Shown here: in pieces, positions 1,079 to 38,720 of the stretch | How positions within the stretch are numbered: the first letter of the stretch is position 1 | How the letters are laid out: every line of letters starts with the position of its first letter | NCBI RefSeq assembly: GCF_027158205.1 | Contig: NZ_JAPVLU010000025.1 | Coordinates: 1-64,000, forward strand | DNA: 64,000 nucleotides | Reading direction: 5' to 3' | Source: Streptomyces sp. H39-S7 | GTDB taxonomy: Bacteria; Actinomycetota; Actinomycetes; Streptomycetales; Streptomycetaceae | Notes under the pieces: model-generated | What the model was told of the DNA's origin: nothing | Database searches by the model: none | Seen by the model: the letters and a program-made list of their open reading frames with translations, nothing else | Made by a program: the position numbers and the translations under genes

Positions 1079-1386
1079 CGTAGGGGGCCCGCAGGGCGTC
1101 CGATCCCCCTCGCATGTGGGGCATGACCCCCCGGGTCGCGAACGGCCGTTGAGGCCCCCACGAGGGGGCTGCACGGGCCTGATTTGCGGTGCTCTTCGCG
1201 CGCGTGCGCGTAGAGGCCCCCTCCCTGAAACGGCGCAACTCCGCAACTTCGCAGGTCACAGGCGGTTGTGGAGGCTCAACCTGCGGTGCCGACGCAACCG
1301 GCAGCGCAACCCCCGGTCATTGAGGTGGGCCGGTGACGCCACGCAACGGCGCACCGGCCCTATCCACGGTCTTGGAGGACCTTTTC
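1079..1386. other. Non-coding leader of the transfer gene
   Basis: No gene is supported in these 308 bases. They hold an imperfect hairpin near 1151-1170 (GCCCCC/GGGGGC arms), GCAGGTCA at 1251-1258 and ACCTGCGGT at 1279-1287, two oppositely oriented pieces of a motif that recurs around the repeat field at 6.6 kb. The transfer promoter and its operator are expected here; I cannot place -10/-35 boxes with confidence. Confidence 0.4.
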
Positions 1387-3282
1387 GTGGACTGGAAACA
1401 AGCATGGTCGAACACCACCACCACAACCAACACAGCGCTGGACGCGCTCGCACCGATGTGCGCGCCGTTCGCGGTCCGCTGGGACCGGGACGCCGAGCGC
1501 CGGACACAACTGCGGACCCCGGAGCACCTGAAAGCGCTCATGAGTGCGCAGCGGGAGCACAACTCTGCCCGCTCCACCGCTGTCATGGCGCGCAATCAGC
1601 GCAGTGCGGCCCGTAAGGCGACGAACAATCCGCTGTCGCAGAACCGCCGGGCCGCGCGGACCGCGCACAAGGCCGCACGGCAGCATCACAGCCAGGCCCG
1701 CGCGGTGTTGAAGGCGGCGCAGAACAACTACCCCGCCACTCTCACCACCCGTGCGGTGCAGGCGCATGCCGCGCACGCGGTGCCGGGCGGGTTGGCGTCT
1801 TGGCTGATGTCGGAGACCGCCCACACGCTCACGGTGTGGCCGGCGTCCCTGTCCGCCGGGCTGATCGTCCTGAACGCGGCCGGTCTGTGGCTGGGGCGTC
1901 GTCAGCCGTCGGTGCGGCTCGATGACGGGATGAGCCCTGAGGAGCGTCGGTTGGCCTCCCGGCTGGACCCCTCGTTCTGGGTCCAGAACGCCGACGCCCG
2001 GGGCTTGTCGGGCACGGTGCCCACCCCGGCCAAGCTCACCCAAGCCGGGCTGGTCGCACACGTGCGTCTCGACGGCCGGTGGACACCGAAATCGTTCCGC
2101 GCGAAGGCTGATGAGATCCGGGCCTTGCTGGGGGCGCGGACGGCCCTGCGCATGGAGATCACCTCCGGCAGCCACGGCGACCGGGCCACGATCACGCTGC
2201 GCACCCGCAGCGCGGCCGACGGCATCGACCTGACCGGCTGGGCCCCCGGCGCCCCATGGGGCATCGACACCATCACCGGCGACCCGGTCATGGTCCCGCT
2301 GGGCCGCCGGATGCTGATCGCGGGAACCTCCGGATCAGGCAAGTCCTGGTCCACCCGGGCGCTTCTCGCAGACGCCTCCGAGCCTGCCGACCACCGCCTT
2401 ATCGTCATCGACCCGAAGCGGGTCGAGGCCCTGAACTGGCAGCACCGAGCCCGCACGGCGGTCCGCCGAGACGACGTCCTTGAGGTGACCGATGAGCTGG
2501 TCGAGGAGATGCACGAGCGGCTGGAGGAGATCCCGCGCGGCAGCGACGTCATCGCCATCAGCGCCCGCCGCCCCCGCATCACGGTCTTCGTCGACGAAGG
2601 GGCCGAGGTCATCGCCATGGCCCGGCACAAGGCCCCCCGCACCGAGGACGGGCCCGGCACGGACTACGTCCGGATCATGGAGAACCTGCGCACCCTGGCC
2701 CGCATGGCACGGGCAGGGGAAATCATCCTGATCTGGGCAACGCAGAAGCCCACTATGGACGGCAAGAGCCCCGGTCTGGACCCGCAGATCAGCGCGCAGA
2801 TCACCTACCGGGCCTCGCTCGCCCTCTCCACATCCTCAGAGTCCCGGGTGGTGTTCGGGGAGGACGCCACCGAGGACGGATGGCACGCACACAAGCTGCC
2901 CATGCCCGGTATCGCGATGCTGCGCTCCGGACCCAAGTCCCAGCCCCACCCGGTCAAGACCCGGGCGTTCTCCCCGGCCGACGTCATCGCCCTGCCCGAC
3001 CGCCCCATCTGGCACCGGACAGCAACCTCCCAGCCGACCCGGAGCCCGCTGCACCTGGTCAAGGAGCCGACCACCGCCCCGGCGGCCGCGCCCGTGCCGG
3101 CCAGCAACCGGGACCGGGTGCGACAGGCAGTCGCGGACGGGGCTCGGACCCTGCGGGACATCACCGACCGGACCGGCATCAACAAGGGAACCGTCTCCCG
3201 CGAACTCAAAGCCCTCATCGCCACCGGAACCCTGCTCAGGACCGATGACGGCATGGTCCTGCCCGGCCAGCAAGCGGCCTGA
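1387..3282 (+). CDS. traB: FtsK/SpoIIIE-type conjugative DNA translocase (TraB family)
   Basis: This 631-residue protein is the transfer motor of the element. In Streptomyces, a single TraB-type hexameric ATPase moves double-stranded DNA between hyphae. The first 130 residues are basic and helical, followed by a hydrophobic segment (about residues 145-170) that would anchor it in the membrane. The motor domain has Walker A GTSGSGKS (about residues 313-320) and Walker B VFVDEG (about 400). The last 60 residues form a winged helix-turn-helix (RDITDRTGINKGTVSRELKAL), the position where TraB and FtsK proteins carry their sequence-reading gamma domain. GTG 1387 is chosen because GGAGGA sits seven bases upstream; an in-frame GTG at 1333 lacks a ribosome site. 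It is followed by its own hairpin. Confidence 0.9.
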   Translation: MDWKQAWSNTTTTTNTALDALAPMCAPFAVRWDRDAERRTQLRTPEHLKALMSAQREHNSARSTAVMARNQRSAARKATNNPLSQNRRAARTAHKAARQHHSQARAVLKAAQNNYPATLTTRAVQAHAAHAVPGGLASWLMSETAHTLTVWPASLSAGLIVLNAAGLWLGRRQPSVRLDDGMSPEERRLASRLDPSFWVQNADARGLSGTVPTPAKLTQAGLVAHVRLDGRWTPKSFRAKADEIRALLGARTALRMEITSGSHGDRATITLRTRSAADGIDLTGWAPGAPWGIDTITGDPVMVPLGRRMLIAGTSGSGKSWSTRALLADASEPADHRLIVIDPKRVEALNWQHRARTAVRRDDVLEVTDELVEEMHERLEEIPRGSDVIAISARRPRITVFVDEGAEVIAMARHKAPRTEDGPGTDYVRIMENLRTLARMARAGEIILIWATQKPTMDGKSPGLDPQISAQITYRASLALSTSSESRVVFGEDATEDGWHAHKLPMPGIAMLRSGPKSQPHPVKTRAFSPADVIALPDRPIWHRTATSQPTRSPLHLVKEPTTAPAAAPVPASNRDRVRQAVADGARTLRDITDRTGINKGTVSRELKALIATGTLLRTDDGMVLPGQQAA

Positions 3283-3369: not shown

Positions 3370-4056
3370 ATGACCCAACCCACCCCCATCCGGCGACCCC
3401 ACCGGCCCCGTTTACTGGACGCCTATGGCTGCCAGGGCGGCGCCGGCAAAGGCTACGACGACGCCGGATTCGACGTCACCGGCCTCGACCACGAGCCGCA
3501 GCCCCGCTACCCGTTCACCTTCGTCCAGGGTGATGCGGTCGCGTTCATCCGGGAGCACGGGCACGAGTTCGCGGCGATCCACGCTTCTCCGCCGTGCCAG
3601 CACGACAGCGACTGCCAGCGCATCCAGGGCCGCGACCACCCGGACCTGATCGCCCCTACCCGCGCAGCGCTGGAGTCCACTGGCAGGCCGTGGGTGATGG
3701 AGAACGTCAAGGGTGCCCTGCCCAAGCTCCGCGAGCCGGTGATGCTGTGTGGGGCGATGTTCGGGATGGCGACCTACCGCCACCGTTGGTTCGAGACTGG
3801 CGGCGGCTTCACCCTTACCGCACCCGCCCACCCCGCGCACATCGCACCGCAGGCCAAGATGGGCCGCCCCGTCCCGGACGGCTGGTACGGGCAGTTCGTC
3901 GGGAACTTCTCCGGCGTCGACCTGGCCCGCCGCGTCATGGGCGTGCCGTGGATGAACCGCGACGGCATCCGCGAGTGCATCCCACCCGCCTACGCGGCGT
4001 GGATCGGTGCCCAGCTCCTGGCCAGCATCACGCCGGCACTGGGGGTGGCGGCATGA
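3370..4056 (+). CDS. Orphan C5-cytosine DNA methyltransferase-like protein
   Basis: The 228-residue product has the core motifs of C5-cytosine methyltransferases: an AdoMet-binding start (LLDAYGCQGGAGKGY, motif I), SPPCQ with the catalytic cysteine at about residue 76 (motif IV), and ENV at about 111 (motif VI). It is much shorter than a typical 300-450 residue enzyme, and there is little room for a target-recognition domain, so its specificity may be relaxed or unusual. No restriction endonuclease gene is nearby. Such stand-alone methylases occur in actinobacterial phages and AICEs, where protection from host restriction is the usual suggestion. The stop overlaps the next start (ATGA at 4053-4056), which couples it to the primase-polymerase gene. 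Confidence 0.8.
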   Translation: MTQPTPIRRPHRPRLLDAYGCQGGAGKGYDDAGFDVTGLDHEPQPRYPFTFVQGDAVAFIREHGHEFAAIHASPPCQHDSDCQRIQGRDHPDLIAPTRAALESTGRPWVMENVKGALPKLREPVMLCGAMFGMATYRHRWFETGGGFTLTAPAHPAHIAPQAKMGRPVPDGWYGQFVGNFSGVDLARRVMGVPWMNRDGIRECIPPAYAAWIGAQLLASITPALGVAA

Positions 4057-4889
4057 ACGCCCTGCTGGCCACCGCCCTGGACCTGGCCGCCGCCGGGGTA
4101 CCGGTGCTGCCGCTGCGGGCGGGGAAGGTCCCGTTCGGGAACTGCCGGGCCTGCGCCGGCAACGTGTGCGGCGGGCGGCCGAACATGAAGACCCCCGGCC
4201 CCTGCACCTGCCCGAACCTGTGCCACGGCTGGGCCGCTGCCACCACCGACCCGAACGTCATCTCCTCGCCTCCGTGGGAGCGGGCGTGGCGGCAAGCGGC
4301 GGGTGTGGCCTACCACCCGGGCGGCGCCGGGCTCACCGTCGTGGACCTCGATAACCCGGCCGCCATCGCCTGGGCCCGTGCGAACCTGCCCGCCACCCGG
4401 ACCGTGCCGACGACCCGGGGCGAGCACTGGCTCTACCAGGGCGCCATGCAGGGCGCCAACGGCGTACGGCCCGGCGTCGACATCAAGTCGACCATGGCCT
4501 ACGCCCGCTGGCTCGGTGCCGGCACCGGCACGATGGCGGCGCTGCCGGACGTCGTGCGCGCGCTGACCGCCAAGGAGTCCGCGCCCGTACGACCGGCGCC
4601 GCCCATCGCCGTGCCCGCTCAGGCCAGGGACAGCCAGTGCCCGCACCGCACACCCGCCTATCTCGCCCGTGGCCTGGCCATGGCGGAGCAGCGCATCACC
4701 GAGGCCCGCGAGGCGGTGCACGCGACCGTGTACCGAACGTTCCTCGCAGTGCTGTCCGCGCACGGCCAGTGCGGCTGCCTCACCGAGGCACACATGGCCC
4801 GGCTGTTCACCGCCGCACAGGTCAAGGGCGAATCGGCACGGCACTGCACCGACGCATGGACCAACGCCCTGAACCGATTGGGGATGTGA
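4053..4889 (+). CDS. Bifunctional primase-polymerase (prim-pol), AICE replication
   Basis: This 278-residue protein is an archaeo-eukaryotic type primase-polymerase. It opens with the family signature AAAGVPVLPLRAGKVP. A Cys-rich insertion follows (starting at Cys31, CRACAGNVCGG then CTCPNLCHG), probably a zinc site. Next come VVDLDNP, whose two aspartates at about 98 and 100 are the expected metal ligands, and the GEHWLY segment that corresponds to the conserved histidine motif. The C-terminal 90 residues look helical. Together with the downstream ATPase it should initiate element replication, replacing RepSA of pSAM2-like elements. Its ATG overlaps the methylase stop by four bases, and the next gene starts one base after its stop. 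Any larger reading frame beginning upstream in this frame is an artefact. Confidence 0.85.
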   Translation: MNALLATALDLAAAGVPVLPLRAGKVPFGNCRACAGNVCGGRPNMKTPGPCTCPNLCHGWAAATTDPNVISSPPWERAWRQAAGVAYHPGGAGLTVVDLDNPAAIAWARANLPATRTVPTTRGEHWLYQGAMQGANGVRPGVDIKSTMAYARWLGAGTGTMAALPDVVRALTAKESAPVRPAPPIAVPAQARDSQCPHRTPAYLARGLAMAEQRITEAREAVHATVYRTFLAVLSAHGQCGCLTEAHMARLFTAAQVKGESARHCTDAWTNALNRLGM

Positions 4890-4890
4890 C

Positions 4891-6366
4891 ATGCCCGAGG
4901 ACGAGAAGACCCCCGCCCGCGAGATCATCACCGACTACGCGCAATCCCACTTCCGGTACTTCCGCACCGCCGACGGCACCGTATACGCACAGCGCAACGG
5001 CCACCCCGTGGCCCGCCCGATCCGCTCGCAGGGCACGACCGGCAGCCACCGCCAGGAACTCATCGTCGGTATGTACCGCGACGGGATCGGGGTGTTCAAC
5101 GGCACCGCGCTCAAAGAGGCGCTGGATTTGATCGAGGCGCTGGCGCTGTACGAGGAGACGCAGGCGGTGCACATCCGGGTGGCACCGGGGTTCGACGGGG
5201 CGACGTGGCTGGACCTCGGGCGGGATGACGGGCAGTCCGTCCGCATCCACCCCACCGGCTGGGACATCCTCACCCCCGACCCCCGCGAGGTGTGCTGGCG
5301 GCGCACCCAGCTCACCGGGGAACTGCCCCTGCCGGCCAAGGACACCGGCGGTAAAGGCATCGACCTGCTGATGCGGTTGTGCAACTTCGCCACCGCTGAG
5401 ACCGAGTGCTTGGCCATCGCCTGGCTGATCGGCTGCCTCAGGCCGTTCGCGCCCGTCCCCGCACCGTTCCTCACCGGCCCCCAGGGTGCGGGCAAGTCCA
5501 CCGCCGGGCGGATGCTCCTGCGGATCATTGAGGGCATGAGCGGAGACCTGCGCCGGGCACCGAAGGACGAAGGCGACCTGATCACGGCCGTGGCCGCCGG
5601 ATGGATCACCGCCCTGGACAACCTCTCCCACATGACCCCGGAGCTGTCCGACGCGATGTGCTGCATCGTCACCGGCGCCGAAAGCGTCAAGCGCGCCCTG
5701 TTCAGCGACGGGGACGTCTTCCGTCTGGGCTTCCGCCGCCCCCTGCTCCTGACCGGCATCGACGTCGGAGTCATCCGCCCCGACCTCGCTGAACGGCTCC
5801 TGCCGCTACGCCTGGTACGGCCCCGGATCCGGCGCACCGAGGCCGAACTGTGGGCCGAGTACGCGGAAGTGCTGCCGGTCATCCTCGGCTCGCTCCTGGA
5901 CCTCACCGTCAAGGTCCGCGCCATGGAGGTGGAGACCCCCACCGACCTGCGGATGGCGGACTTCGCGCACCTGTGCGCGCAGCTCGACGCAGCCGCCGGC
6001 CTCGGAGCACTCACCGCCTACCTGGCCAGCCTGGACGAGCTGAACGACGACGTGATCGAGGGCGACCTGCTCGCGCAGACCGTCCTGAAGCACGCCGAGA
6101 CCCTCGCCCCGGGCACGGAGCAACGGATGACGTCCACGCAGTGGCTGCACTGCCTCAGCCGCCTCCACAGCGGCGACGACTGCCGCCCCCTGCCCAAAGG
6201 CTGGCCGACCACCGGCAAAGTCCTCTCCGACCGCCTCAAGCGCCTCCAACCAACGCTGGCCGCACGTGGCGTGCTCATCGACACCGGCCGCACCAGCGAA
6301 GGCCGCTACCTCGAAATGACCCGCCCGGCAGCCCCGCCGCCACCTGAACAGCAGCGGGCGTTCTGA
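4891..6366 (+). CDS. AAA ATPase / replication helicase-like Rep protein
   Basis: The 491-residue product carries Walker A GPQGAGKST (Lys about 202) and an acidic Walker B-like site in WITALDNLSH (Asp about 243), followed by GIDVGVIRPDLAERLLPLRL, an arginine-rich sensor region. The layout resembles the D5/P4-type helicases that accompany prim-pol enzymes in plasmids and AICEs. The C-terminal 100 residues include a predicted winged-helix stretch (LPKGWPTTGKVLSDRLKRLQP) that could bind the origin. ATG 4891 starts one base after the primase-polymerase stop, so the two subunits are made from one message. The repeat field at 6540-6744, just downstream, is the best candidate for its binding site. 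Helicase activity is inferred, not visible from a complete motif set. Confidence 0.75.
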   Translation: MPEDEKTPAREIITDYAQSHFRYFRTADGTVYAQRNGHPVARPIRSQGTTGSHRQELIVGMYRDGIGVFNGTALKEALDLIEALALYEETQAVHIRVAPGFDGATWLDLGRDDGQSVRIHPTGWDILTPDPREVCWRRTQLTGELPLPAKDTGGKGIDLLMRLCNFATAETECLAIAWLIGCLRPFAPVPAPFLTGPQGAGKSTAGRMLLRIIEGMSGDLRRAPKDEGDLITAVAAGWITALDNLSHMTPELSDAMCCIVTGAESVKRALFSDGDVFRLGFRRPLLLTGIDVGVIRPDLAERLLPLRLVRPRIRRTEAELWAEYAEVLPVILGSLLDLTVKVRAMEVETPTDLRMADFAHLCAQLDAAAGLGALTAYLASLDELNDDVIEGDLLAQTVLKHAETLAPGTEQRMTSTQWLHCLSRLHSGDDCRPLPKGWPTTGKVLSDRLKRLQPTLAARGVLIDTGRTSEGRYLEMTRPAAPPPPEQQRAF

Positions 6367-6382
6367 CCCGCACGCACACCCG

Positions 6383-6430
6383 GAACAGCAAGAAGAGCAC
6401 CGGCCCCGGGGGGTGCTCCTCTTGCTGTTC
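6383..6430 (+). terminator. Strong hairpin terminator after rep
   Basis: A 19-position stem (6383-6401 with 6412-6430) pairs at 18 positions around a 10-base loop, 16 bases after the rep stop. It separates the replication operon from the repeat field and xis-int. Confidence 0.8.
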
Positions 6431-6520
6431 GGCGGAACGCCGCTCGAAGGTCGTGCCGCGCAGCGGCTCCTTCTTCGCTCTGTGAGGCGCACCGGACCAC
6501 AACAGACAGGCCCTTCTTTT

Positions 6521-6744
6521 TTCCTAAGTAGGAAGAACCTGCGTCATCTGCGTCATGCGGGCCGAAATACGGGCCTTGACCTGCGGTGACAGCCATGACG
6601 CAGACGGCGGCGCCTGCGTCATCCTGCGTCATCTGCGTCATGCGATGACGCAGCCCATGACGCACCCATGACGCACCCCCAACCGCTACGTCACTAAAAA
6701 CCGCAGGTCAGAGGCCCGCATGACGCCAATGACGCAATGACGCA
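6521..6744. repeat. Iteron-like octamer field, candidate AICE origin
   Basis: The octamer TGCGTCAT or its complement ATGACGCA occurs eleven times without a mismatch. Forward copies start at 6540, 6549, 6615, 6625 and 6634. Reverse copies start at 6595, 6645, 6657, 6668, 6729 and 6737. A one-mismatch copy starts at 6720. Spacing is 8-12 bases within clusters, and the central cluster switches orientation near 6643. On the left is an AT-rich patch with a perfect palindrome TTCCTA-AG-TAGGAA (6521-6534) and a T-run. No coding frame explains the repeats. The region from 6367 to 6828 is otherwise empty of genes. Confidence 0.85.
6577..6710. repeat. 11-bp inverted repeats flanking the iteron core
   Basis: TGACCTGCGGT at 6577-6587 and its exact complement ACCGCAGGTCA at 6700-6710 bracket the central cluster of octamers. 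The core nine bases recur in the traB leader (1279-1287), which suggests one DNA-binding protein acting on both regions. Confidence 0.7.
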
Positions 6745-6828
6745 GAAATCCCCACCTCGGACAGGTGCGACGGCCCCACGAGCGCGAGCCGCCCAAAACG
6801 CGCCCACCCCGCCACCCAAGGAGCCGCA

Positions 6829-7020
6829 GTGACCACCGCTCCCATCCCCGAAGCACTGACCGTGCCAGAGGTCATGGCTGCACTGCGGCTCGGCCGCAGC
6901 AAGCTCTACGACCTGCTCCGCTCCCGCGAGCTGGACAGCTTCAAAATCGGCCGCAGCCGCCGCATCACGGTCGACAGCCTCACCGCCTATCTCCGCAACC
7001 AGACCAATCAGGAGTACTGA
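6829..7020 (+). CDS. xis: Excisionase (helix-turn-helix, MerR/Xis type)
   Basis: This 63-residue protein is almost entirely one winged-helix DNA-binding domain: VPEVMAALRLGRSKLYDLLRS is the recognition helix-turn-helix, followed by FKIGRSRRITVDSLTAYL, the wing. That is the usual form of Xis in pSAM2-like elements, which together with integrase drives excision of the element. GTG 6829 follows AAGGAG at 6818-6823 with five bases of spacing. The integrase starts two bases after its stop, so expression is coupled. The octamer field ends about 85 bases upstream and could also act on the xis-int promoter. Confidence 0.85.
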   Translation: MTTAPIPEALTVPEVMAALRLGRSKLYDLLRSRELDSFKIGRSRRITVDSLTAYLRNQTNQEY

Positions 7021-7022
7021 CC

Positions 7023-8174
7023 ATGGCTAAGCGCAGGCCGAACGGTGCGGGCAGCATCACCCGCCGCAAGGACGGCACCTATCACGGGCGTGCCTACGTG
7101 ACGACGACTGAGGGCGTGCTCAAGCGGGTGTCCCGCTACGGCAAGACCTATGACGAAGTTGCCGAGAAGCTGGCCAAGCTGCTGGAGCTGGAATCCAAAG
7201 GCGTGCCGACACCGGATAAGGCGTGGAAGGTCGGCCCCTACCTCACGTACTGGCTGGCAGAGATCGTGCAGCCGAACCAGCGGCCCACTACCTACGACAA
7301 GTACGAGTCCATGGCGCGGCTGCACCTTATCCCCAAGCTGGGGACAAAGCGGCTGACCAAGCTGGGCATCGCCGACGTGCGTACCTTCCTGCGGCAGACC
7401 AAGGCCGAGGGCGTGGGGGCGTCAACGCGGCTTGAGTGCATGAAGGTGCTGCGGAACGCCCTCAACCGGGCGATGCGGGAAGAGCTGCTGCTCCGCAACG
7501 TCGCATCGCTGGTGGACATGCCCTCCGTCGACTCGAAAGAGATCATCCCGTGGAGCGCGCAGGAAGCCATCGACTTTCTGCGGTCAACGCGTCCGCACCG
7601 CATGCACGCCGCGTTCGTCCTGGCGCTGGTGCTGGGCCTGCGGCGCGGGGAGCTTCTGGGGCTGCGCTGGATCGATCTGGACCTCGATCAGGGGGTCGCG
7701 CACCCGCGCAAGCAGGTACAGCGGCAGAAGGGCGCTGGGCTGGTCCTGGTGGACCTCAAGACAGAAGCCTCCAAGGGCGCTCTGCCGCTCCCCCTGCTGT
7801 GCATCGAGACCTTGGGAGAGTGCCGGCGCCTGCGGGAGCTGGAGAAGGCCAAGGCAGGGGAGAAGTGGACCGAGCTGGGATTGGTGTTCGGCACCGAGAC
7901 CGGGGGTCTCTTTGATCCGGATCACTTCTCCCAGACGTTCCAGCGCCGGGTGAAGCGCTCCCGGCTCCGGCGGGTGCGGCTGCATGACACACGTCACACC
8001 TGCGGCAGTCTGCTCGCTTGGCTGGGGGTCCACCCCAAGGACGCTCAGAAGATCCTGCGTCACAGCCAGATCAAAACGACGCTGGACATCTACACCCACG
8101 TCACCACGGAGTCCCAGCGGGCCGCCGCAGCCAAGATCAGCGCCAAACTCCGGGACGGCATGCAGGGCCGCTGA
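7023..8174 (+). CDS. int: Tyrosine site-specific integrase
   Basis: This 383-residue tyrosine recombinase integrates and, with Xis, excises the element. It has an N-terminal arm-binding domain (about 1-60), a SAM-like core-binding domain (about 70-160) and the catalytic domain. The catalytic residues are visible: Arg207 in LGLRRGE, His321 and Arg324 in HDTRH, His347 in LRHSQ and the nucleophile Tyr357 in DIYTHV. The chosen ATG 7023 gives the normal family start (MAKRRPNGAGSI), two bases after xis. The gene ends 76 bases from the 3' end of tRNA-Ile, the classic position for an integrase beside its attachment site. Confidence 0.95.
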   Translation: MAKRRPNGAGSITRRKDGTYHGRAYVTTTEGVLKRVSRYGKTYDEVAEKLAKLLELESKGVPTPDKAWKVGPYLTYWLAEIVQPNQRPTTYDKYESMARLHLIPKLGTKRLTKLGIADVRTFLRQTKAEGVGASTRLECMKVLRNALNRAMREELLLRNVASLVDMPSVDSKEIIPWSAQEAIDFLRSTRPHRMHAAFVLALVLGLRRGELLGLRWIDLDLDQGVAHPRKQVQRQKGAGLVLVDLKTEASKGALPLPLLCIETLGECRRLRELEKAKAGEKWTELGLVFGTETGGLFDPDHFSQTFQRRVKRSRLRRVRLHDTRHTCGSLLAWLGVHPKDAQKILRHSQIKTTLDIYTHVTTESQRAAAAKISAKLRDGMQGR

Positions 8175-8250: not shown

Positions 8251-8327
8251 TGGTGGGCCTAACAGGACTTGAACCTGTGGCCTCTTCCTTATCAGGGAAG
8301 CGCTCTAACCGTCTGAGCTATAGGCCC
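8251..8327 (-). tRNA. tRNA-Ile (GAT), probable AICE attachment site
   Basis: Read on the minus strand, the 77 bases fold as a cloverleaf. The acceptor stem pairs GGGCCTA with TAGGCCC, the D-arm contains AGCTCAGACGGTTAGAGC, the anticodon loop is CTGATAA with anticodon GAT, the T-arm contains GGTTCAAGTCC, and CCA is encoded. It lies downstream of gyrB-gyrA-DUF3566, where Streptomyces keeps tRNA-Ile, usually followed by tRNA-Ala. Here the AICE occupies the position after the 3' end. Confidence 0.97.
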
Positions 8328-8389
8328 TCGCTGCAACGAAAGATTAGCGCACCACAGGCCATGTCCCAAAATCGGTATCCGACGCCCGG

Positions 8390-9094
8390 TTACTCGTCCT
8401 CCGCGAGCGTCAGCTCGACGCCGCCGACGAAGCCCGCGGACATGTTGTAGATGAAGGCTCCGAGGGTGGCCAGAGCCGTCGCGAGGACCACGTCGATCAC
8501 CGAGATGACCGTGGTGATGACGAGGACGCGGGACAGCGACAGGAAGGACACCAGGTCGAAACCACCGCTGGCGCCGCCCTCCGCCGTCGTCGCGTCGCTG
8601 ATGGTGCTGCCGACCGTGCTGAAGACGCCGATCGCGTCCAGCACCATCCACAGCACCGCGACCGCCACGATCGTGCAGATGCCCAGCGCGATGGAGAGCA
8701 GGAAGCTGACCTTCATCACCGACCACGGGTCGGCCCTGGCGACCCGCAGCCGCGCCTTGCGCGTCCGCGGCACCGTACGGGCGGCGGGACGCGGCCGGCG
8801 GACGCCCGCGGCGGCCGGCGCCCCCGCACCGGCCCCCTGGGGGCCCGGCGGCGGGTAGGCCTGCGCGGGCTGGTGCGGCGGCTGCTCCGGCGCACCGGGA
8901 ACCCCCGCGCCATAGGTCTGAAGCGGGCCCGCACGATGCGGCGGACGGGTGTCGGTCACGATGGATCCCCCCTGCTGCGGGCTGCTGCTCGTGGAGGAGC
9001 CAGGGGCACCGCCGCCGGCACCGGCCTGGGTGGCCGCCTGCGGCCGGTCCGGACCTGTCGTCCCGCCGGCAGCGGCGCCCGTGGCTCCACTCAC
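8390..9094 (-). CDS. DUF3566 transmembrane protein
   Basis: The product is 234 residues. Its first 110 are low-complexity (Ala, Gly, Pro, Thr), followed by a basic stretch (RTRKARLRVARADPWSVMKVSFLLS) and two membrane segments: the first at about residues 130-152 (LSIALGICTIVAVAVLWMVL) and the second at about 190-215. This is the DUF3566 architecture, found beside gyrA throughout Actinobacteria, including mycobacteria. Function is unknown; an envelope role has been proposed from its topology. GTG 9094 lies two bases after the gyrA stop, and its ribosome site GAGGAG lies inside the gyrA end, so the genes are translationally linked. tRNA-Ile follows 62 bases downstream on the same strand. Confidence 0.9.
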   Translation of the reverse strand: MSGATGAAAGGTTGPDRPQAATQAGAGGGAPGSSTSSSPQQGGSIVTDTRPPHRAGPLQTYGAGVPGAPEQPPHQPAQAYPPPGPQGAGAGAPAAAGVRRPRPAARTVPRTRKARLRVARADPWSVMKVSFLLSIALGICTIVAVAVLWMVLDAIGVFSTVGSTISDATTAEGGASGGFDLVSFLSLSRVLVITTVISVIDVVLATALATLGAFIYNMSAGFVGGVELTLAEDE

Positions 9095-9096
9095 GG

Positions 9097-11682
9097 TTAC
9101 TCCTCGATTTCAGCGGCCACGGGCTCGTCGCCCACGGCCTCGTCGGCGTCGGCCTCTTCGGCCTCCACCCCAGCCTCGGCATTGCGCGCGATGCCCACGA
9201 CGGCATCCCGCTTGCCAAGATTGATCAGTTGGACGCCCATGGTGTCACGGCCCGTCTCCCTGACCTCGTTGACCCGCGTACGAATCACTCCGCCGCTGAG
9301 GGTGATGGCGAGGATCTCATCGCTCTCCTCGACCACCAGCGCCCCGACGAGGGAACCGCGGTCCTCGACAATCTTCGCCGCCTTGATGCCGAGTCCGCCA
9401 CGCCCCTGGACGCGGTACTCGTCCACCTTGGTGCGCTTGGCGTACCCGCCGTCGGTGGCGGTGAAGACGAACGTACCCGGCCTGACCACATTCATCGAGA
9501 GCAGTTCGTCGCCCTCTCGGAAACTCATGCCCTTCACACCCGACGTGGCACGGCCCATCGGCCGCAGCGCGTCGTCCGTGGCGGTGAACCGGATGCACTG
9601 CGCCTTGCGGCTCACCAGCAGCAGATCGTCCTCCGCCGAGACCAGCTCGGCACCGATCAGCTCGTCGTCCGAGCCGTCCTCGGCCTCGCGCAGGTTGATG
9701 GCGATGACGCCGCCGGCCCGCGGGGAGTCGTAGTCCTTGAGCGCGGTCTTCTTGACCAGGCCCGCCCGGGTGGCGAGCACCAGGTACGGAACGGCCGAGT
9801 AGTCCCGGATCGCCAGGATCTGGGCGATCTTCTCGTCCGGCTGGAACGCCAGCAGGTTCGCGACGTGCTGGCCGCGGGCGTCCCGCCCGGCGTCCGGCAG
9901 CTCGTACGCCTTCGCCCGGTAGACCCGGCCCTTGTTGGTGAAGAACAGCAGCCAGTGGTGCGTGGTGGAGACGAAGAAGTGGTCGACGAGGTCGTCCTGC
10001 TTCAGCTTCGCGCCGCGTACGCCCTTGCCGCCGCGCTTCTGCGACCGGTAGTCCTCGGTCTTGGTGCGCTTGACGTAACCGCCGTGCGTGATCGTGACGA
10101 CGATGTCCTCTTCGGCGATCAGGTCCTCGATGGACATGTCACCGTCGAAGGGGATCAGCTTGCTGCGCCGGTCGTCGCCGAACTTGTCGACGATCACCGC
10201 CAGCTCCTCGCTGATGATCTGCCGCTGCCGCTCGGGCGAGGCCAGGATCGCGTTGTACTCGTTGATCTTCTGCTGCAGCTCGTCGTGCTCCGCGACGATC
10301 TTCTGCCGCTCCAGGGCCGCGAGGCGCCGCAGCTGCATCTCCAGGATCGCGTTCGCCTGGATCTCGTCGATCGACAGCAGGCCCATCAGGCCCTCGCGGG
10401 CGATGTCGACCGTGTTGCTGCGCCGGATCAGCGCGATGACCTCGTCGATCGCGTCCAGCGCCTTGAGCAGGCCGCGCAGGATGTGCGCCCGCTCCTCGGC
10501 CTTGCGCAGCCGGAAACGCGTGCGGCGGACGATGACCTCGACCTGGTGCGTCACCCAGTGCCGGATGAACGCGTCGATCGACAGGGTGCGCGGCACCCCG
10601 TCGACCAGGGCCAGCATGTTCGCCCCGAAGTTGGTCTGCAGGTCGGTGTGCTTGTACAGGTTGTTCAGCACGACCTTGGCGACCGCGTCGCGCTTGAGCA
10701 CCACGACCAGGCGCTGCCCGGTGCGCGAGCTCGTCTCGTCGCGGACATCGGCGATGCCGGCGACCTTGCCGTCCTTCACCAGGTCGGCGATCTTCTGCGC
10801 GAGGTTGTCCGGGTTCACCTGGTACGGGAGCTCCGTGACCACCAGGCACTGGCGGTTCTGGATCTCCTCGACGTTGACGATCGCGCGCATCGTGATCGAG
10901 CCGCGGCCCGTGCGGTACGCGTCCTCGATGCCGCTCCGGCCCACGACCAGCGCGCCGGTCGGGAAGTCCGGGCCCTTGATCCGCTCCAGGAGCGCTTCCA
11001 GCAGTTCCTCGTGCGAGGCCTCGGGGTTCTCCAGGTACCACTGCGCGCCCGCCGCGACCTCGCGGAGGTTGTGCGGCGGGATGTTGGTGGCCATACCGAC
11101 CGCGATGCCCGCCGAACCGTTCACCAGCAGGTTCGGGAAGCGCGCCGGGAGGACCGTCGGCTCCTGGTTGCGGCCGTCGTAGTTGTCCTGGAAATTGACG
11201 GTGTCCTCGTCAATGTCGCGGACCATCTCCATCGACAGCGGCATCATCTTGCACTCGGTGTACCGCATGGCGGCGGCCGGGTCGTTGCCCGGGGAACCGA
11301 AGTTGCCGTTGGAGTCCACGAGCGGCATCCGCATCGACCAGTGCTGGGCGAGGCGGACCAGGGCGTCGTAGATCGAGGAGTCGCCGTGCGGGTGGTACGT
11401 GCCCATGACGTCACCGACGACGCGGGCGCACTTGTAGAAGCCCTTCTCGGGCCGGTAGCCGCCGTCGTACATCGCGTACAGCACACGGCGGTGCACCGGC
11501 TTGAGGCCGTCACGGACGTCGGGCAGCGCACGCGACACGATGACGGACATCGCGTAGTCGAGGTAGCTGCGCTGCATCTCCGTTTCGAGGCCCACCGGCT
11601 CGATGCGCACGGTGGAAACCTCGGCATCGGCGGCCACGGCCGCCTCGTCGTCGGGCGTCACAGGGGGATTCTCGTCGGCCAT
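9097..11682 (-). CDS. gyrA: DNA gyrase subunit A
   Basis: This 861-residue protein is the breakage-reunion subunit of gyrase, which introduces negative supercoils with GyrB. The catalytic tyrosine is Tyr141 ([10 protein letters not shown]). The quinolone-determining region reads [12 protein letters not shown], with Ser102 and Asp106 at the positions equivalent to E. coli Ser83 and Asp87, so no classical quinolone-resistance substitution is present. The C-terminal half contains the beta-pinwheel blades, and the GyrA box appears as [10 protein letters not shown]. The acidic tail (residues about 840-861) is typical for Streptomyces. It follows gyrB on the same strand with a 41-base gap. Confidence 0.98.
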
Positions 11683-11723
11683 TGCTGGTCAAAGTCCTTT
11701 CGGGCGGCGGCGGTGGGGCCGAC

Positions 11724-13940
<2,217 letters not shown>

Positions 13941-14014
13941 TCACGCAGGCGTCCAGGGCTTCTGGCTGTCAACCCACGATTACGGTGAGCAGGGTCTCAG
14001 CAGACGCAGGGTCC

Positions 14015-14677
14015 TCACCCGTATGTGTCGCCCGGGCCCTTGCTGCCGGGCGCCCGCAGCCGGCCGTACGTACGCGGCGGCCCCATCGGGCCCAGCACCT
14101 TGATCAACTTCACCGTGCCGTGCCCCAGATCACTGTTCAGCCGCGCCACCAGCGTCGGAGCCAGCAGCCGCAGCTGCGTCGCCCACGCCGTCGAGTCGCA
14201 CTGCACCGTCAGGACGCACTCCTCCTCGTCGTACTTGGCAGGCTCGCAGTGCTGCGCCACGTCCTCGCCCACGATCTGCGGCCAGCGGCCCATCACACCG
14301 CCCACGGCGGCCGGCGCCTCCCAGCCGCGCTCGGTGATCAGCCGGCTGATCGCGGCGCCCAGCGGCAGCGGATCGCGGCCGTCGGCGCGCGCACCGCTGC
14401 GCAGGCCCCCTCTGCGCGCCTGCTTCTTCTGCTGCGTCGCCGCACCCCGCGCCCGCGCCTGCTCCTTGGCCGCGCGCAGCGCGACCCGCGCCAGGTCGAC
14501 ACCGGACAGGCCGTCCCCGGGGCCGGCGGCGTCCTGGCCCTGGGTGCCGGACGCCGCTCCCGGCGCGGGCACCGCCCCCGGCGACCTGGAGGGGGGCACC
14601 GCTCCCGAGGCCCCTGATGTCTTGGAGGCGGGCGCCTTTCCCGCGCCCCCACCGCCCGACGGCAGCTGCCCGCTCAT
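14015..14677 (-). CDS. DUF721 (DciA-like) protein
   Basis: The 220-residue product has a disordered Gly/Pro/Ser-rich N-terminus of about 55 residues. A conserved linker with a basic Gln-Lys stretch ([10 protein letters not shown]) follows, and then the DUF721 domain (about 105-205), seen as [34 protein letters not shown] and [23 protein letters not shown]721 is the fold of DciA, the ancestral protein that loads the replicative helicase in bacteria lacking DnaC. That role fits its place between recF and gyrB and the absence of a DnaC gene in the window, but it is inference for this protein. Its ATG overlaps the recF stop by four bases (ATGA). Confidence 0.88.
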
Positions 14678-15807
14678 GACACACGCTCCGCTGCGCCCTG
14701 CTCGACGGCGAACCGCGCCCCTGCCAGCAGATCCGGCACATCGTCCTCCACAGCCGCCGTGACCAGCACCTGCTCGCCCGGCGCCACCAGCTCCGCCAGC
14801 CGCCGGCGGCGCTTGGCGTCGAGCTCCGCGAAGACGTCGTCCAGGATCAGCACCGGCTCCCTGCCGTCCGCGCTCAACAGCTCGTACGACGCCAGCCGCA
14901 GCGCCAGGGCGTACGACCAGGACTCGCCATGGCTCGCGTACCCCTTCGCCGGCAGCCGGCCCAGGTGCAGCAGCAGGTCGTCACGGTGCGGGCCGACGAG
15001 CGTCACCCCGCGCTCGATCTCCTGCTTGCGGGACTCGCCCAGCGCCTCCAGCAGCAACCCCGACAACTCCTCGCGGCCGCTCGCGCCGGCAAGTCGTTCG
15101 CCGATCGAACTGCGGTACTCCAGGGCGACGGGACCGCCCCCGGGAGCCAGCTGCTCGTACGCCTTGTCCGCCAGCGGCTGCAGCGCGGCCGTCAGGTCCA
15201 GGCGCTGCGCGAGCAGCTCCGCGCCGACGCCCGCCAGATGCTGGTCCCAGACGTCCAGGGTCGACAGGTCGCCGCCCTTGCCGCCGTGCCTGCGGGCCAT
15301 CGCCGCGCTCTTCAGCAGCGTGTTCCGCTGTTTCAGCACCCGCTCGTAGTCCGACCGGGTACCCGCCAGGCGCGGGGTGCGGGTGGTGAGCAGCTCGTCG
15401 AGGAAGCGGCGGCGCTCACCGGGGTCGCCCTTCACCAGGGCGAGGTCCTCGGGAGCGAACAGCACGGACCGCAGGATGCCCAGCACATCGCGCGGCCGGA
15501 CCTGGTTCGAACGGTTGATCCGGGCCCGGTTCGCCCGGCCCGGGTTGATCTCCAGCTCGATGAGCTGCTGGCGGTCGCCCTGCACCACCTGGGCCCTGAC
15601 CACCGCGCGCTCCGCCCCCGAGCGCACCAGCGGTGCGTCGGAGGCCACCCGGTGGCTGCCCAGCGTGGCCAGGTACCCGACCGCCTCGACGAGGTTGGTC
15701 TTGCCCTGTCCGTTGGGGCCCACGAAAGCGGTGACGCCCGGGTCGAGCGGTACCTCGACCCGGGCGTAGGAGCGGAAGTCGGCTAGCGACAGGTGCGCTA
15801 CGTGCAT
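14674..15807 (-). CDS. recF: DNA replication/repair protein RecF
   Basis: This 377-residue SMC-like ATPase helps load RecA at gaps and stalled forks. Walker A is GPNGQGKTN at about residues 30-38, the Q-loop region follows, and the C-terminus has the ABC signature-like segment and Walker B ([21 protein letters not shown]). The length is normal for the family. It starts with the standard [15 protein letters not shown]. It is separated from gnd by 28 bases and overlaps the DUF721 gene, forming one leftward transcription unit. Confidence 0.97.
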
Positions 15808-15835
15808 GGCTGTGCGCCGGCCTCCCCGGTAATGA

Positions 15836-16714
15836 CTACTTCTTGTTCTCGACCGCGTGGCCGCCGAACTGGTTGCGCAGCGCGGCGATCATCTTCATCT
15901 GCGGGGAGTCGTCCTGGCGGGACGCGAAACGGGCGAACAGCGACGCGGTGATCGCCGGCAGCGGCACCGAGTTGTCGATCGCGGCCTCCACCGTCCAGCG
16001 GCCCTCGCCGGAGTCCTGCGCGAAGCCGCGCAGCTTCTCCAGGTGCTCGTCGTCGTCCAGCGCGTTGACCGCCAGGTCGAGTAGCCAGGAGCGGATGACG
16101 GTGCCCTCCTGCCAGGAGCGGAAGACCTCGCGGACGTCGGTGACCGAGTCCACGGCCTCCAGCAGTTCCCAGCCCTCGGCGTAGGCCTGCATCATCGCGT
16201 ACTCGATGCCGTTGTGAACCATCTTGGCGAAGTGGCCGGCGCCGATCTTGCCCGCGTGGACCGAGCCGAACTCGCCCTCGGGCTTGAGGGCGTCGAAGAC
16301 CGGCTGCACCTTGGCGACATCCTCGGCGGAGCCGCCGTACATCAGCGCGTAGCCGTTCTCCAGGCCCCAGACGCCACCGGAGACGCCGCAGTCGACGAAG
16401 CCGATGCCCTTGGCCTTCAGCTCCTCGCCGTGCTTCTCGTCATCGGTCCAGCGGGAGTTCCCGCCGTCCACGACGATGTCGCCGGGGGAGAGCAGGCCGC
16501 CGAGCTCGTCGATGGTCGACTGGGTGGCCGCACCGGACGGGACCATCACCCACACGACCCGCGGACCCTTGAGGCTGTCCACAAGCTCCTTGAGGCTGTG
16601 GACATCGGCGACGTCCGGGTTCCGGTCGTAGCCGATGACGGTGTGGCCCGCGCGGCGGATGCGCTCGCGCATGTTGCCGCCCATCTTGCCGAGACCGATG
16701 AGACCGAGCTCCAT
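15836..16714 (-). CDS. gnd: 6-phosphogluconate dehydrogenase (short, YqeC/Gnd-like)
   Basis: This 292-residue enzyme oxidatively decarboxylates 6-phosphogluconate in the pentose phosphate pathway. The N-terminal Rossmann fold is clear ([13 protein letters not shown]), as are the substrate loop [14 protein letters not shown] and the catalytic helix [24 protein letters not shown] with Lys and His-Asn. It belongs to the shorter homodimeric type of about 300 residues, not the 470-residue E. coli type. The ATG at 16714 is preferred to a GTG one codon upstream because GAAGGA is six bases before the ATG. Its insertion between dnaN and recF is characteristic of Streptomyces. Confidence 0.95.
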
Positions 16715-16799
16715 CACAGATCCTTCGTTCGAAGCGTGCCTGACCTAGACCGAGCCTACGACGGCCCCGCGCGACCGGCTCAGCCGGTGACGCGTCAGG

Positions 16800-17930
16800 T
16801 CAGCCGGAGAGACGCACCGGCATGATCAGGTACTTGTAGGCGTCGTCCGCCTCCGCGTCCACGGCCGGGCGGCCGCTGAGCAGCGCGGGCTTGGTGGACG
16901 TGGTGAAGGAGAGCTGGGCGACCGGCGAGTCGATCGCGCTCAGCCCGTCCAGCAGGAACGTCGGGTTGAAGGCGATCGAGATGTCGTCGCCGTCGAGCTT
17001 GGAGTCGACGCGCTCCACAGCCTGTGCGTCGTCGCTGGAGCCGGCTTCCAGGGTGAGGACGCCCTGCTCGAAGCTCAGCCGCACCGGGGTGTTCCGCTCG
17101 GCGACCAGCGCGACGCGCTTGACCGCCTCCACGAAGGGGGCGGTCTCGATGACGGCGACCGAGGCGAACTCGGTCGGGAAGAGCGTGCGGTACTTCGGCA
17201 GGTCGCCTTCGAGCAGCCGGGTGGTGGTGCGGCGCCCGGCGCCCTCGAAGCCGATCAGGCCCTCACCGGAGCCGGAGCCCGCCAGCGCGATGGAGACGGT
17301 GTCTCCGCTGGTCAGGGACTTGGCGGTGTCCAGCAGAGTCTTGGCGGGCACCAGGGCGACCGCGGAGATGTCCGCCTGCTCGGGCTTCCACATGAACTCG
17401 CGGACCGCGAAGCGGTAGCGGTCGGTGGCGGCGAGGGTGACGGTGTCGCCCTCGATCTCGATCCGCACGCCGGTCAGCACCGGCAGCGTGTCGTCACGGC
17501 CGGCGGCGATGGCCACCTGGGCGGCCGCGGCGGCGAAGACCTCACCGGGCACCGTCCCCGAGGCGACCGGCATCGCCGGCAGTGCCGGGTACTCCTCCAC
17601 AGGCAGGGTGTGGAGTGTGAATCGCGAGCTGCCGCAGACCACGGTGACGCGGGATCCCTCGGTGGAGATCTCCACAGGCCTGTTGGGAAGTGCCCGCGTG
17701 ATGTCGGCGAGGAGCCGGCCGGAAACGAGGACCGTGCCGTCCTCCTCGACCTCCGCGTCGACCGCGACCCGGGCCGAGACCTCGTAGTCGAAGCCGGAGA
17801 GGCTGAGCCTGCCCTCCTCCGCCTTCAGCAGCAGTCCGGCGAGGACCGGTACCGGGGGACGGGCCGGAAGGCTGCGGGCTGCCCAAGCCACTGCCTCGGC
17901 GAGTACGTCGCGCTCCACCCGGATCTTCAC
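16800..17930 (-). CDS. dnaN: DNA polymerase III beta sliding clamp
   Basis: This 376-residue protein is the ring-shaped processivity clamp of the replicative polymerase. The three repeated clamp domains can be followed from KIRVERDVLAEAVAWAARSLP at the start to the C-terminal YKYLIMPVRLSG, the usual clamp ending. The open frame runs on to 18062, but GTG 17930 is chosen because AGGAGG sits eight bases upstream and the resulting N-terminus matches the family exactly. The promoter lies inside or next to oriC, so expression may respond to DnaA. Confidence 0.97.
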   Translation of the reverse strand: MKIRVERDVLAEAVAWAARSLPARPPVPVLAGLLLKAEEGRLSLSGFDYEVSARVAVDAEVEEDGTVLVSGRLLADITRALPNRPVEISTEGSRVTVVCGSSRFTLHTLPVEEYPALPAMPVASGTVPGEVFAAAAAQVAIAAGRDDTLPVLTGVRIEIEGDTVTLAATDRYRFAVREFMWKPEQADISAVALVPAKTLLDTAKSLTSGDTVSIALAGSGSGEGLIGFEGAGRRTTTRLLEGDLPKYRTLFPTEFASVAVIETAPFVEAVKRVALVAERNTPVRLSFEQGVLTLEAGSSDDAQAVERVDSKLDGDDISIAFNPTFLLDGLSAIDSPVAQLSFTTSTKPALLSGRPAVDAEADDAYKYLIMPVRLSG

Positions 17931-18047
17931 CGGAACCGCCTCCTGCTTGTTGCTGGCTGTCGGTGAACAGTCTGACAGCCGGCGCAGACAGTCGGTGCTG
18001 GTTGAGGTCAAGCCGGGCAGGACGGTGCCGGGCGGCTCCGGCCCGAG

Positions 18048-18611
18048 TTGTGCACACCCCATGCTTCCAAGCAGGTTCCCAGTTATCTATACGTAGTCGT
18101 AGTAATAGGTGTTGTGGATACCGTGGATAAGTGGTTCCTGCGCAGGTCAAGGCCTGTTTTTTATCCACCGAGCCTGTGGGCGGGGCCGGTGCATAACCAA
18201 CCGCTTCTGTGGACAGCCAGAAGTTGTGCACACCGCGTACACAGGGGACCCCCACTTCTCCCCAGCACCGTCCCCAGAAATACCCGGGTTCTCCCCAGCC
18301 CAATCCACCCCCCTGGTGTGACGCGGTTCACTCTCTCCGGGGACAGACGCCGTTTTGTTGCCGAACAGTGGACAAACGTGTGGAGAAGCTGTGCACAACC
18401 CTCTCCAGCCTGTGGGCGGGCGGTGGACAACCCTCGGACCGTCCATTGCCCACAATCTTTGTCCACACCCTGTGGACAAAGGTTTCCCACAAATCCACAC
18501 CCGGCTGACCTCGTCTGATGAGTATGCAGCGGGCCTGCCTGTGGAGGCAGTTGGGACAACTTCCCAGTCCCCAGGGTGTGGACGGCCGTTTCCGGCCCAA
18601 CCTGTGGAGAA
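18048..18611. other. oriC: Chromosomal replication origin oriC
   Basis: The 842 bases between dnaN and dnaA contain no gene but many DnaA boxes of the Streptomyces type TTGTCCACA. Perfect copies are at 18459-18467 (plus) and 18471-18479 (minus). TTGTGCACA copies are at 18048-18056, 18224-18232 and 18390-18398 (minus). Others with one to two mismatches start at 18113, 18122, 18161, 18208, 18367, 18379, 18422, 18446, 18483, 18491, 18577 and 18603. That is about 17 boxes, in two groups separated by a C-rich gap (18241-18340). An AT-rich patch (TTATCTATACGTAGTCG, from 18083) beside the dnaN-proximal boxes is the likely unwinding site. Confidence 0.95.
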
Positions 18612-18646
18612 GCCCCGGTCGGGGCCTGGCATTCGAACAAAAAGAA

Positions 18647-18675
18647 GCGCCCCGGGAGTTCGACTCTCGGGGCGC
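18647..18675 (-). terminator. Rho-independent terminator of dnaA
   Basis: A 13-position stem (18647-18659 with 18663-18675, one mismatch) and a TCG loop are followed on the minus strand by TTCTTTTTGT, a rare real U-tract. It lies about 100 bases past the dnaA stop and keeps dnaA transcripts out of oriC. Confidence 0.85.
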
Positions 18676-18772
18676 CACGTGTTTCAACCGCAGGATTCGG
18701 TTCTGGATCGGCCCAGAAGCGGCTCCGGAACGGCTCCGGAAGGGCTTAGGAACGGCTCCGGACGAGCCCGGA

Positions 18773-20518
18773 TCAGCTCTTGATGCGGTTCGTCAGCTCG
18801 GTCACCTGGTTGTAGATGGACCGCCGTTCGGCCATCAGCGCCCGGATCTTCCGGTCCGCGTGCATCACCGTGGTGTGGTCGCGGCCGCCGAACAGCGCGC
18901 CGATCTTCGGCAGCGACAGGTCCGTCAGCTCGCGGCACAGGTACATGGCGATCTGACGGGCGGTGACCAGCACCCGGCTGCGCGAGGATCCGCACAGGTC
19001 GTCCACGGCCAGGCCGAAGTACGCCGCGGTCTCCGCCATGATCGCGGGCCCGGTGATGTCCGGCACCGAGTCCTCGCCGCCCGGGATCAGGTCCTTGAGG
19101 ACGATCTCCGTCAGCTGCAGGTCCACCGGCTGCCGGTTCAGGCTCGCGAACGCGGTGACGCGGATCAGCGCGCCCTCCAGCTCGCGGATGTTCCGCGAGA
19201 TGCGCGACGCGATGAACTCCAGCACCTCGGGCGGGGCGTTGAGCTGCTCCTGCACCGCCTTCTTGCGCAGGATCGCGATCCTGGTTTCCAGCTCGGGCGG
19301 CTGGACGTCCGTGATCAGGCCCCACTCGAAGCGGTTGCGCAGCCGGTCCTCCAGCGTGACCAGCTGCTTGGGCGGCCGGTCGGAGGAGAGCACGATCTGC
19401 TTGTTCGCGTTGTGCAGGGTGTTGAAGGTGTGGAAGAACTCCTCCTGCGTCGACTCCTTGCTCGCGAGGAACTGGATGTCGTCGACCAGCAGGATGTCCA
19501 TCTCGCGGTACCGCTTGCGGAAGGTGTCGCCCTTGCCGTCGCGGATCGAGTTGATGAACTCGTTGGTGAACTCCTCCGAGCTCACGTACCGCACCCGGGT
19601 GCCGGGGTAGAGGCTCCGCGCGTAGTGCCCGATGGCGTGCAGCAGGTGGGTCTTGCCGAGCCCGGACTCCCCGTAGATGAAGAGCGGGTTGTAGGCCTTG
19701 GCCGGCGCTTCGGCGACCGCCACGGCCGCGGCGTGCGCGAACCGGTTCGACGAACCGATGACGAAGGTGTCGAAGAGGTACTTGGGGTTCAGCCGGGCCG
19801 TGGGCTCGTTCGGGGGGCTGCCCTGCCCGCTGCGGCCGGGGGGCGACTGGTCGTGGCGGACCTGGTCGCGGTGGCGGCCCGGGTCGTGCCGGTCGCGCTC
19901 CGGCGGCGGGGACCGGTAGTCGTTCTGCGGCGCCGGAGCGTAGGACTCGCGACTCCGGTCCGTCGAGTAGCGGTCCCGTTCGCCCTGGTAGCTGTCGCGC
20001 TCCTGGAAACCGCCGAGCCGCGGCTGCTGCCAGGGGTCGTCGGCGGCCGGCCGAGGAGGCCACTCGTCGACGCCGGGGCGCCCGGACTGGTGGTCCGGGT
20101 ACGCGCGGCGCATACGGGGGCCGTCGTCGTGGGAGGGCCGCTCCGACTGGGGGCGGTCGTAGGACTCGTCGTACTCCCGCCGGTGCTGTCCGTACGGGGA
20201 CGGCTCCTGGACCGGCTCCTGCGGGGCCGGCGGGGGGCCGTCCTGGTCGCCGCCGGACGCGACGGCGATGGCGATGCCCACGGGGTGCCCGAACTCACGG
20301 CTGAGGACTTCGGTGATCAGTGGCAGCAGGCGCCCCTCGAGGACGCTCTTGGCGAACTCGTTCGGGGCGGACAGCACCGCGGTGCCCGCGACGAGGGCGA
20401 GCGGCTGGGTGCGCTTGAGCCACTCCGCGTCCTTGGGCTTGAGGTCCTCGCTCTCCGCCAGGATCTTCTGGAGTACGCGTGGCCACACTGCGGCAAGATC
20501 GGCAGATACGTCAGCCAC
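18773..20518 (-). CDS. dnaA: Chromosomal replication initiator DnaA
   Basis: This 581-residue initiator binds DnaA boxes and opens oriC. Domain I (about 1-90) is followed by an unusually long, Pro/Asp/Arg-rich domain II (about 90-240), the Streptomyces hallmark that makes this DnaA longer than the 470-residue E. coli protein. The AAA+ domain has Walker [10 protein letters not shown] (about 281-289) and Walker [11 protein letters not shown]. Domain IV ends with the DNA-reading signature [18 protein letters not shown] 20518 gives the usual start [17 protein letters not shown]. The promoter region contains two DnaA boxes (20666-20686), so autoregulation is expected. Confidence 0.98.
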
Positions 20519-38657: not shown

Positions 38658-38675
38658 CCGTGCGGTAGCCGCGAT

Positions 38676-38689
38676 GTTCCACGTGGAAC
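38676..38689. other. parS: parS site, convergent intergenic pair (1)
   Basis: GTTCCACGTGGAAC at the centre of a 24-bp perfect palindrome (38671-38694), 18 bases after the CCA-enzyme stop. Confidence 0.9.
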
Positions 38690-38720
38690 ATCGCGGTGCC
38701 GAAACGACACCAGGGGCGAT

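Follow-up and report, generated by a model that had tools for sequence, protein, structure and literature searches.

Iteron arrays of plasmids commonly serve both as the origin of replication and as a regulatory or copy-control site. In the SaPI pri/rep and SCCmec Cch2 systems, an AEP-type primase is paired with a D5-like helicase initiator, short iterons immediately after the helicase gene form the origin, and the C-terminal domain of the helicase reads these iterons (PMC7581432). The Rep protein of plasmid pFP11 is cited in PMC3583192 as binding its iterons, and bidirectional theta replication of this plasmid is cited there as published. For pWTY27, RepA was found to footprint the iteron array, and bidirectional replication was inferred (PMC3583192). 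The pRN1 origin is a stem-loop of ~100 nt located 54 bp after the prim-pol/helicase gene (PMC4234260). SLP1-type prim-pol/RepPP AICEs have an integrase, an FtsK-type Tra, and a prim-pol gene followed by a non-RepAM replication gene; the accessible part of the paper describing them names the RepPP genes and gives no origin (Ghinet 2011, PMC3218068). A search of the non-subscription literature for AICEs and iterons in Streptomyces returned no paper uniting both, and no prior description of a prim-pol (SLP1-type) AICE origin was found. The region at 6515–6744, within a conserved non-coding block at 6381–6772 of a 64,000-nt stretch of DNA from Streptomyces sp. H39-S7 (the window), is very probably such an origin, to judge from the sequence comparisons described below, with the 491-aa Rep encoded beside it as the putative initiator.

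The element and its octamer array

The gene content is that of a prim-pol AICE, with a tyrosine integrase, an FtsK-type Tra, and a prim-pol adjoining a tRNA gene. On the forward strand lie tra (1333–3282), encoding an FtsK-type DNA translocase with a C-terminal winged-helix match; a 228-aa open reading frame without identification, between tra and the prim-pol gene; the prim-pol gene itself (AEP, PF09250; 4053–4889) and, in the same module, rep (4891–6366), encoding a D5/SaPI-type helicase initiator; xis (HTH_17/excisionase; 6829–7020), which is outside the conserved block; and the tyrosine integrase gene, recognized by family match (7023–8174). A tRNA-Ile gene on the reverse strand (8251–8327) is, by its position alone, the probable integration target; a left att site was looked for and not found. 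Within 8251–20640, the genes to the right of tRNA-Ile are gyrA, gyrB, recF, and dnaN. Next to dnaN, about 12 kb from the AICE, is a TTGTCCACA DnaA-box-like cluster (18048–18611) that is probably the chromosomal oriC, which would thus place a mobile theta-type origin near oriC. Two perfect GATGTTCCACGTGGAACATC palindromes about 44 bp apart, resembling parS-type ParB sites, were seen at 38673–38738.

Exact copies of the octamer TGCGTCAT/ATGACGCA number 11 in the whole window, and all of them fall within 6540–6744. Shuffling of the whole window gave a mean of 1.83 octamer matches and a maximum of 4, while the densest 8-mer of any sequence in 30 shuffled windows reached 6 copies per 225 bp; the runner-up in the real window, outside the octamer field, reached 5 copies per 225 bp. 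A sequence-only reading of this DNA had counted eleven perfect copies and one near-copy, had judged their density to be beyond chance, and had placed a switch of orientation near 6643; all of these observations are borne out, the near-copy being ATGACGCC (6720–6727, reverse strand, one mismatch).

The array contains 12 GCGTCA cores, 11 of them in perfect octamers, arranged as a dyad centred at ~6643. On the left side, forward iterons 1 (6540–6547) and 2 (6549–6556) are followed by a second motif, TGACCTGCGG (6577–6586), by the inverted iteron 3 (6595–6602), and by forward iterons 4, 5, and 6 (6615–6622, 6625–6632, and 6634–6641). On the right side, reverse iterons 7, 8, and 9 (6645–6652, 6657–6664, and 6668–6675) are followed by a degenerate forward iteron with two mismatches, TACGTCAC (6687–6694), which mirrors iteron 3 in position, by the second motif in inverse form, CCGCAGGTCA (6701–6710), by the near-iteron, and by reverse iterons 10 (6729–6736) and 11 (6737–6744). 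The order of orientations is mirror-symmetric, and the two copies of the second motif are placed symmetrically on either side of the centre. A 207-bp self-match of the array in reverse complement (71%, E 4.6e-12) shows the whole field to be a dyad; this self-match is better evidence for the dyad than the shuffling of gaps and strands, a weak test in which 19 of 80 loci exceeded the maximum of 20 shuffles. Neither the dyad nor the second motif had figured in the sequence-only reading.

The sequence-only reading had proposed looking for the octamer beside homologous rep genes and would have counted its lack of conservation there as a refutation; this comparison did not refute the origin. In 80 loci from named genomes (L073–L152), each with a rep 84–89% identical, every one of the rep homologues (80/80) is followed within 600 bp by 10–15 GCGTCA cores, most commonly in the order ++-+++---+---, and orientation strings show that many homologues have an intact core at the position of the degenerate iteron. 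Among 88 near arrays, TGACCTGC is present on the left in 52 and on the right in 61, compared with 2/88 in shuffles. Searched as a string in literature text, the octamer gave chance matches only, and a DNA search with the array gave no phage match and weak plasmid matches.

Abutting the left end of the array is an AT-rich element (6515–6539) that is a candidate strand-opening site. The AT-rich palindrome with a T-run described earlier is indeed present beside the octamers, in the form of a TTCCTA-AG-TAGGAA inverted repeat (6521–6534) with 6-bp arms and a 2-bp spacer, directly preceded by TTCTTTTTT. The GC content is 0.46 in 6500–6549 versus 0.56–0.76 around it, and the element is conserved, at 1.41 bits per column in 6511–6539.

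The predicted fold of Rep and its proposed reading of the octamers

Searches with the Rep sequence (Pfam, PHROGs, PDB) found no family at threshold, and fold comparison alone placed the protein. An AlphaFold2 model built on an alignment of 26 window and locus proteins (pLDDT 84.8, pTM 0.85) had the SaPI5 primase-helicase as its top structural match (Z 20.0, 376 residues, rmsd 5.9); further matches were poxvirus D5/E5 (Z 17–18) and ASFV PrimPol (Z about 12–16). From these matches and a Foldseek comparison, Rep is predicted to have the D5/SaPI-type helicase fold of SaPI/SCC-type initiators, and short repeats lie directly downstream of its gene, as in those systems. No rolling-circle Rep family was found in Rep with Pfam or NCBIfam. 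The "double-strand origin" of the sequence-only reading, a term of rolling-circle replication, is not favoured in view of this fold, and a theta-type iteron origin is more likely because the fold is of the D5/SaPI type. A RepSA-type rolling-circle AICE origin (the pSAM2 dso) was likewise rejected, the initiator having a helicase fold instead of a rolling-circle Rep domain. The C-terminal part of the model has helices at residues 415–427 and 442–457 and a beta hairpin (462–468/471–477) with S469 in its turn. This region is predicted to form a winged helix, with 442–457 as the proposed recognition helix, 462–477 as the wing, and S469 at its tip.

Across dozens of species, residue 469 covaries with the last base of the octamer. 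When 88 reps were typed by the majority base at this position, 40 were T-type and 48 were C-type. Serine at 469 was found in 30 T-type rows and in no C-type row (p 3e-15), lysine in 27 C-type rows and in no T-type row, and arginine in 16 C-type rows and in one T-type row (L098); the remaining residues were F, M, Y, A, and H in the T-type and N, G, and H in the C-type. The switch is imperfect, with arginine accompanying a T-type array in L098 and histidine occurring in both types. In outgroup plasmids carrying TGCGTCAC, lysine occupies the aligned position. Simple linkage is not favoured as the cause, and proximity is a poor explanation, because the association is absent from the DNA that separates codon 469 from the array: none of the nucleotide columns from codon 472 to 6510 fell below p 1e-6, a level that codon 469 and the array do reach. 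For correction by phylogeny, a codon tree of Rep residues 1–395 was used; the protein tree of residues 1–400 had too few supported branches, giving 3 pairs that almost always changed in the same direction. The codon tree implies about 22 changes of octamer type and about 24 of residue 469, and its supported branches provided 7 independent pairs, with a mean of 5.9 in agreement and 0 in disagreement (sign-test p about 0.03). Independent contrasts are few because the reps are closely related, and the tree-corrected evidence is moderate because a crude top-residue scan on the supported tree ranks position 89 level with 469.

On the basis of this covariation, it is proposed that the C-terminal domain of the helicase reads the repeats. 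The sequence-only reading had suggested an origin bound by either the AAA protein or the prim-pol encoded at 4053–6366. The origin is strongly supported, as the array travels with rep, is carried by plasmids beside homologous reps, and covaries with a predicted wing residue of the 491-aa helicase; this covariation points to the helicase, and not the prim-pol, as the reader.

Arrays also accompany more distant relatives of rep. Complete circular plasmids with reps 61–69% identical have the array between rep and parA with no xis or int beside it, and pFP12, whose record is marked linear, has the same layout; the plasmid repeats are CTGCGTCAC in L153–155 and CTGCGTCCCC in L156–158. A homologous Rep with an adjacent iteron array is likewise found in pFP11, with which Rep (P0001) aligns by tblastn at 36% over 95% of its length; pFP11 and two relatives (rep 35–36%) have GTGCGTCCC arrays downstream of rep. 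Distant reps (30–41%) have arrays directly downstream with the drifted repeats TGCGTCCC, ACCGTCCA, AGCGTCCG, and ATGTCCC, and an unbiased 7-mer scan of them returned ACCGTCC, AGCGTCC, ATGTCCC, and TTCACCC arrays, some with counts barely above or equal to those of shuffled controls (e.g., L176–L178, L194, and L196). Distant arrays that are rich in repeats (L170, L179, and L185) retain the mirrored layout and strong fold-back. An apparent array at L206 (CCTCGAG) was excluded as a palindromic 7-mer field of another kind. Several distant homologues had no array within 1.2 kb downstream; these array-less reps (L168, L171–L175, L198, L201, and L202), mostly of 590–680 aa and with 33–36% identity, may represent a subfamily that differs in origin or role.

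The second motif, TGACCTGCGG in the window and often TGACCTGCGNAAA in relatives, persists where the iterons have drifted, and many drifted arrays have it as TGACCTGCGNAAA or close to it. A broader reading, to which we give even weight, is that residue 469 dictates which base ends the octamer, sorting closely related AICEs into compatibility groups. In this reading the core has drifted together with the recognition helix across actinobacteria, and the less variable TGACCTGCGNAAA may have a non-diversifying reader such as the prim-pol or a host factor.

Association of the array with rep and other possible roles

Across loci, the prim-pol stays at 62–81% while Tra, Xis, and Int range from close to undetectable, and the host tRNA genes of related elements are many different ones. 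The genome of H39-S7 has three primpol-rep-array copies, on contigs C64, C66, and C142; similarity among them includes the array and ends at 6776/6779, short of xis, and tra and int differ. The modules of these three elements are near-identical and all T-type, and because of this shared type, cross-talk among them is expected when they are excised. A DNA search of 198 genomes found about 80 near-full-length arrays, which a comparison by eye of part of the list placed roughly 150 bp from rep with one exception in G165; of 392 genomes sampled from the order, 145 contain rep. A full array at L212:7593–7845 (G165:C1 ~2292092–2292344), beside GNAT and GntR/UTRA genes, has no detectable 80%-type rep nearby, and may belong to a decayed element or act in trans. 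A Streptomyces violaceoruber element (L116:9710–9792) is located at tRNA-Tyr, the known site of SLP1, and may be SLP1 or a close relative.

The alternative that survives best is a hairpin or cruciform origin, in which the long fold-back matters and the octamers are a by-product. This overlaps the iteron reading, as the region would still be an origin, and it is considered unlikely. As single-stranded DNA, the array has a predicted fold of -72.7 kcal/mol versus -37.7 when shuffled (z about -10), in one long hairpin, although this score is no proof of a real hairpin because good folding is inherent in any dyad of mirror-symmetric repeats. Drifted arrays fold back too, and the origin of pRN1 is itself a stem-loop (PMC4234260). 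However, the pRN stem-loops keep their structure with little sequence conservation, whereas the octamers show strong sequence conservation as well as covariation with the Rep wing.

It is quite improbable that the array is solely a site of Rep autoregulation, copy control, or incompatibility, with the real origin elsewhere. Rep binding by itself would be no proof of an origin, but the array follows both rep and a 19-bp inverted repeat (6383–6430, forward strand) that precedes the AT-rich element and is probably the rep transcription terminator, an odd spot for an operator. The array is also the conserved non-coding block of the module: conservation is about 1.3–1.6 bits per column over 6381–6775, to the same degree as the rep 3′ end (1.29), versus 0.32 at 6776–6828. 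In SaPIs and SCCmec, moreover, it is the corresponding array, immediately after the helicase gene, that has been described or proposed as the origin (PMC7581432).

A clt/TRS function, in which 8-bp repeats are recognized by the winged helix of an FtsK-type Tra for conjugative transfer, is more improbable still. TraB-type proteins are cited in PMC3583192 as recognizing repeated 8-bp motifs, and the Tra encoded here has the winged-helix match noted above; however, the known clt sites named there are at tra or korB, while the present array is 3 kb from tra. The repeats do not go with the tra gene, the same array being found with unrelated or undetectable Tra: the C66 array is nearly the same (92%) with Tra at only 28%, and the array also stays unchanged among loci in which Tra falls from 86% to undetectable. 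The covariation partner, too, is Rep.

The least probable role, offered in the sequence-only reading, is an xis-int control or recombination site (as arm-type Int/Xis binding sites or as the operator for the xis-int promoter), which would suit an array directly upstream of xis but is already largely refuted, since conservation ends ~60 bp before xis, the array is kept while Int is at 21% to 46% or undetectable, all int/xis clusters with more than one member (7/7) contain both T- and C-type arrays, parA and not xis adjoins the array on plasmids, and octamer type tracks Rep residue 469, so that the array travels with rep and not with xis or int.

Proposed mode of replication and comparison with known systems

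For the favoured iteron origin, we infer the following course of initiation. The C-terminal winged helix of Rep would read the octamers, its recognition helix contacting the constant TGCGTC core and residue 469 at the wing tip reading the last base pair. Each of the two mirror-image groups, of about six iterons, would carry one Rep assembly, the two assemblies facing in opposite directions. Using ATP, the helicase would unwind the DNA, for which the AT-rich element is the candidate entry site, and the element's own prim-pol would prime the exposed strands; the excised circle would then replicate by a bidirectional theta mode. For prim-pol AICEs, the analysis supplies a putative origin location (6381–6772), a consensus, a mirror layout, and a proposed reader domain. 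The covariation bears on how such initiators choose their origins and on how related elements avoid or cause cross-talk, and the compact primase-helicase-origin module is of potential use in Streptomyces vectors.

Among known systems, SaPI and SCCmec share with this locus the AEP-type primase, the D5-like helicase initiator, and the short iterons that directly follow the helicase gene (PMC7581432). Sequence identity to them is only ~10%, however, and the present element is an actinobacterial AICE with a separate prim-pol gene and 12–14 iterons in one dyad. The theta plasmids pFP11 and pFP12 have a homologous Rep (36% and 61%, respectively) and TGCGTC-core iterons downstream of rep, with a prim-pol upstream of rep in pFP11; in contrast to the AICE, they are plasmids with parA, their iterons end in CCC(C/T) and not AT, and the pFP11 array is separated from rep by ~550 bp that include a YozE gene. 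Plasmid pWTY27 has a prim-pol (RepB), RepA, and a ~105-bp inverted-repeat array of the 8-bp unit GTGGGAAC (PMC3583192), a likeness drawn from the published description; its repeat sequence is unrelated. The pRN1 origin, just downstream of the prim-pol/helicase gene and with a long fold-back, is similar in position (PMC4234260), but the protein is fused and the stem-loop shows little sequence conservation, with no iterons recognized. The SLP1-type AICEs agree in their integrase, FtsK-type Tra, and prim-pol followed by a non-RepAM replication gene (Ghinet 2011, PMC3218068). In summary, the principle of a primase and a helicase initiator with downstream iterons is known, while the location and consensus of a proposed prim-pol AICE origin, its conserved dyad and TGACCTGC arrangement, the way the iterons have drifted within the Rep family, and a candidate residue for specificity are new.
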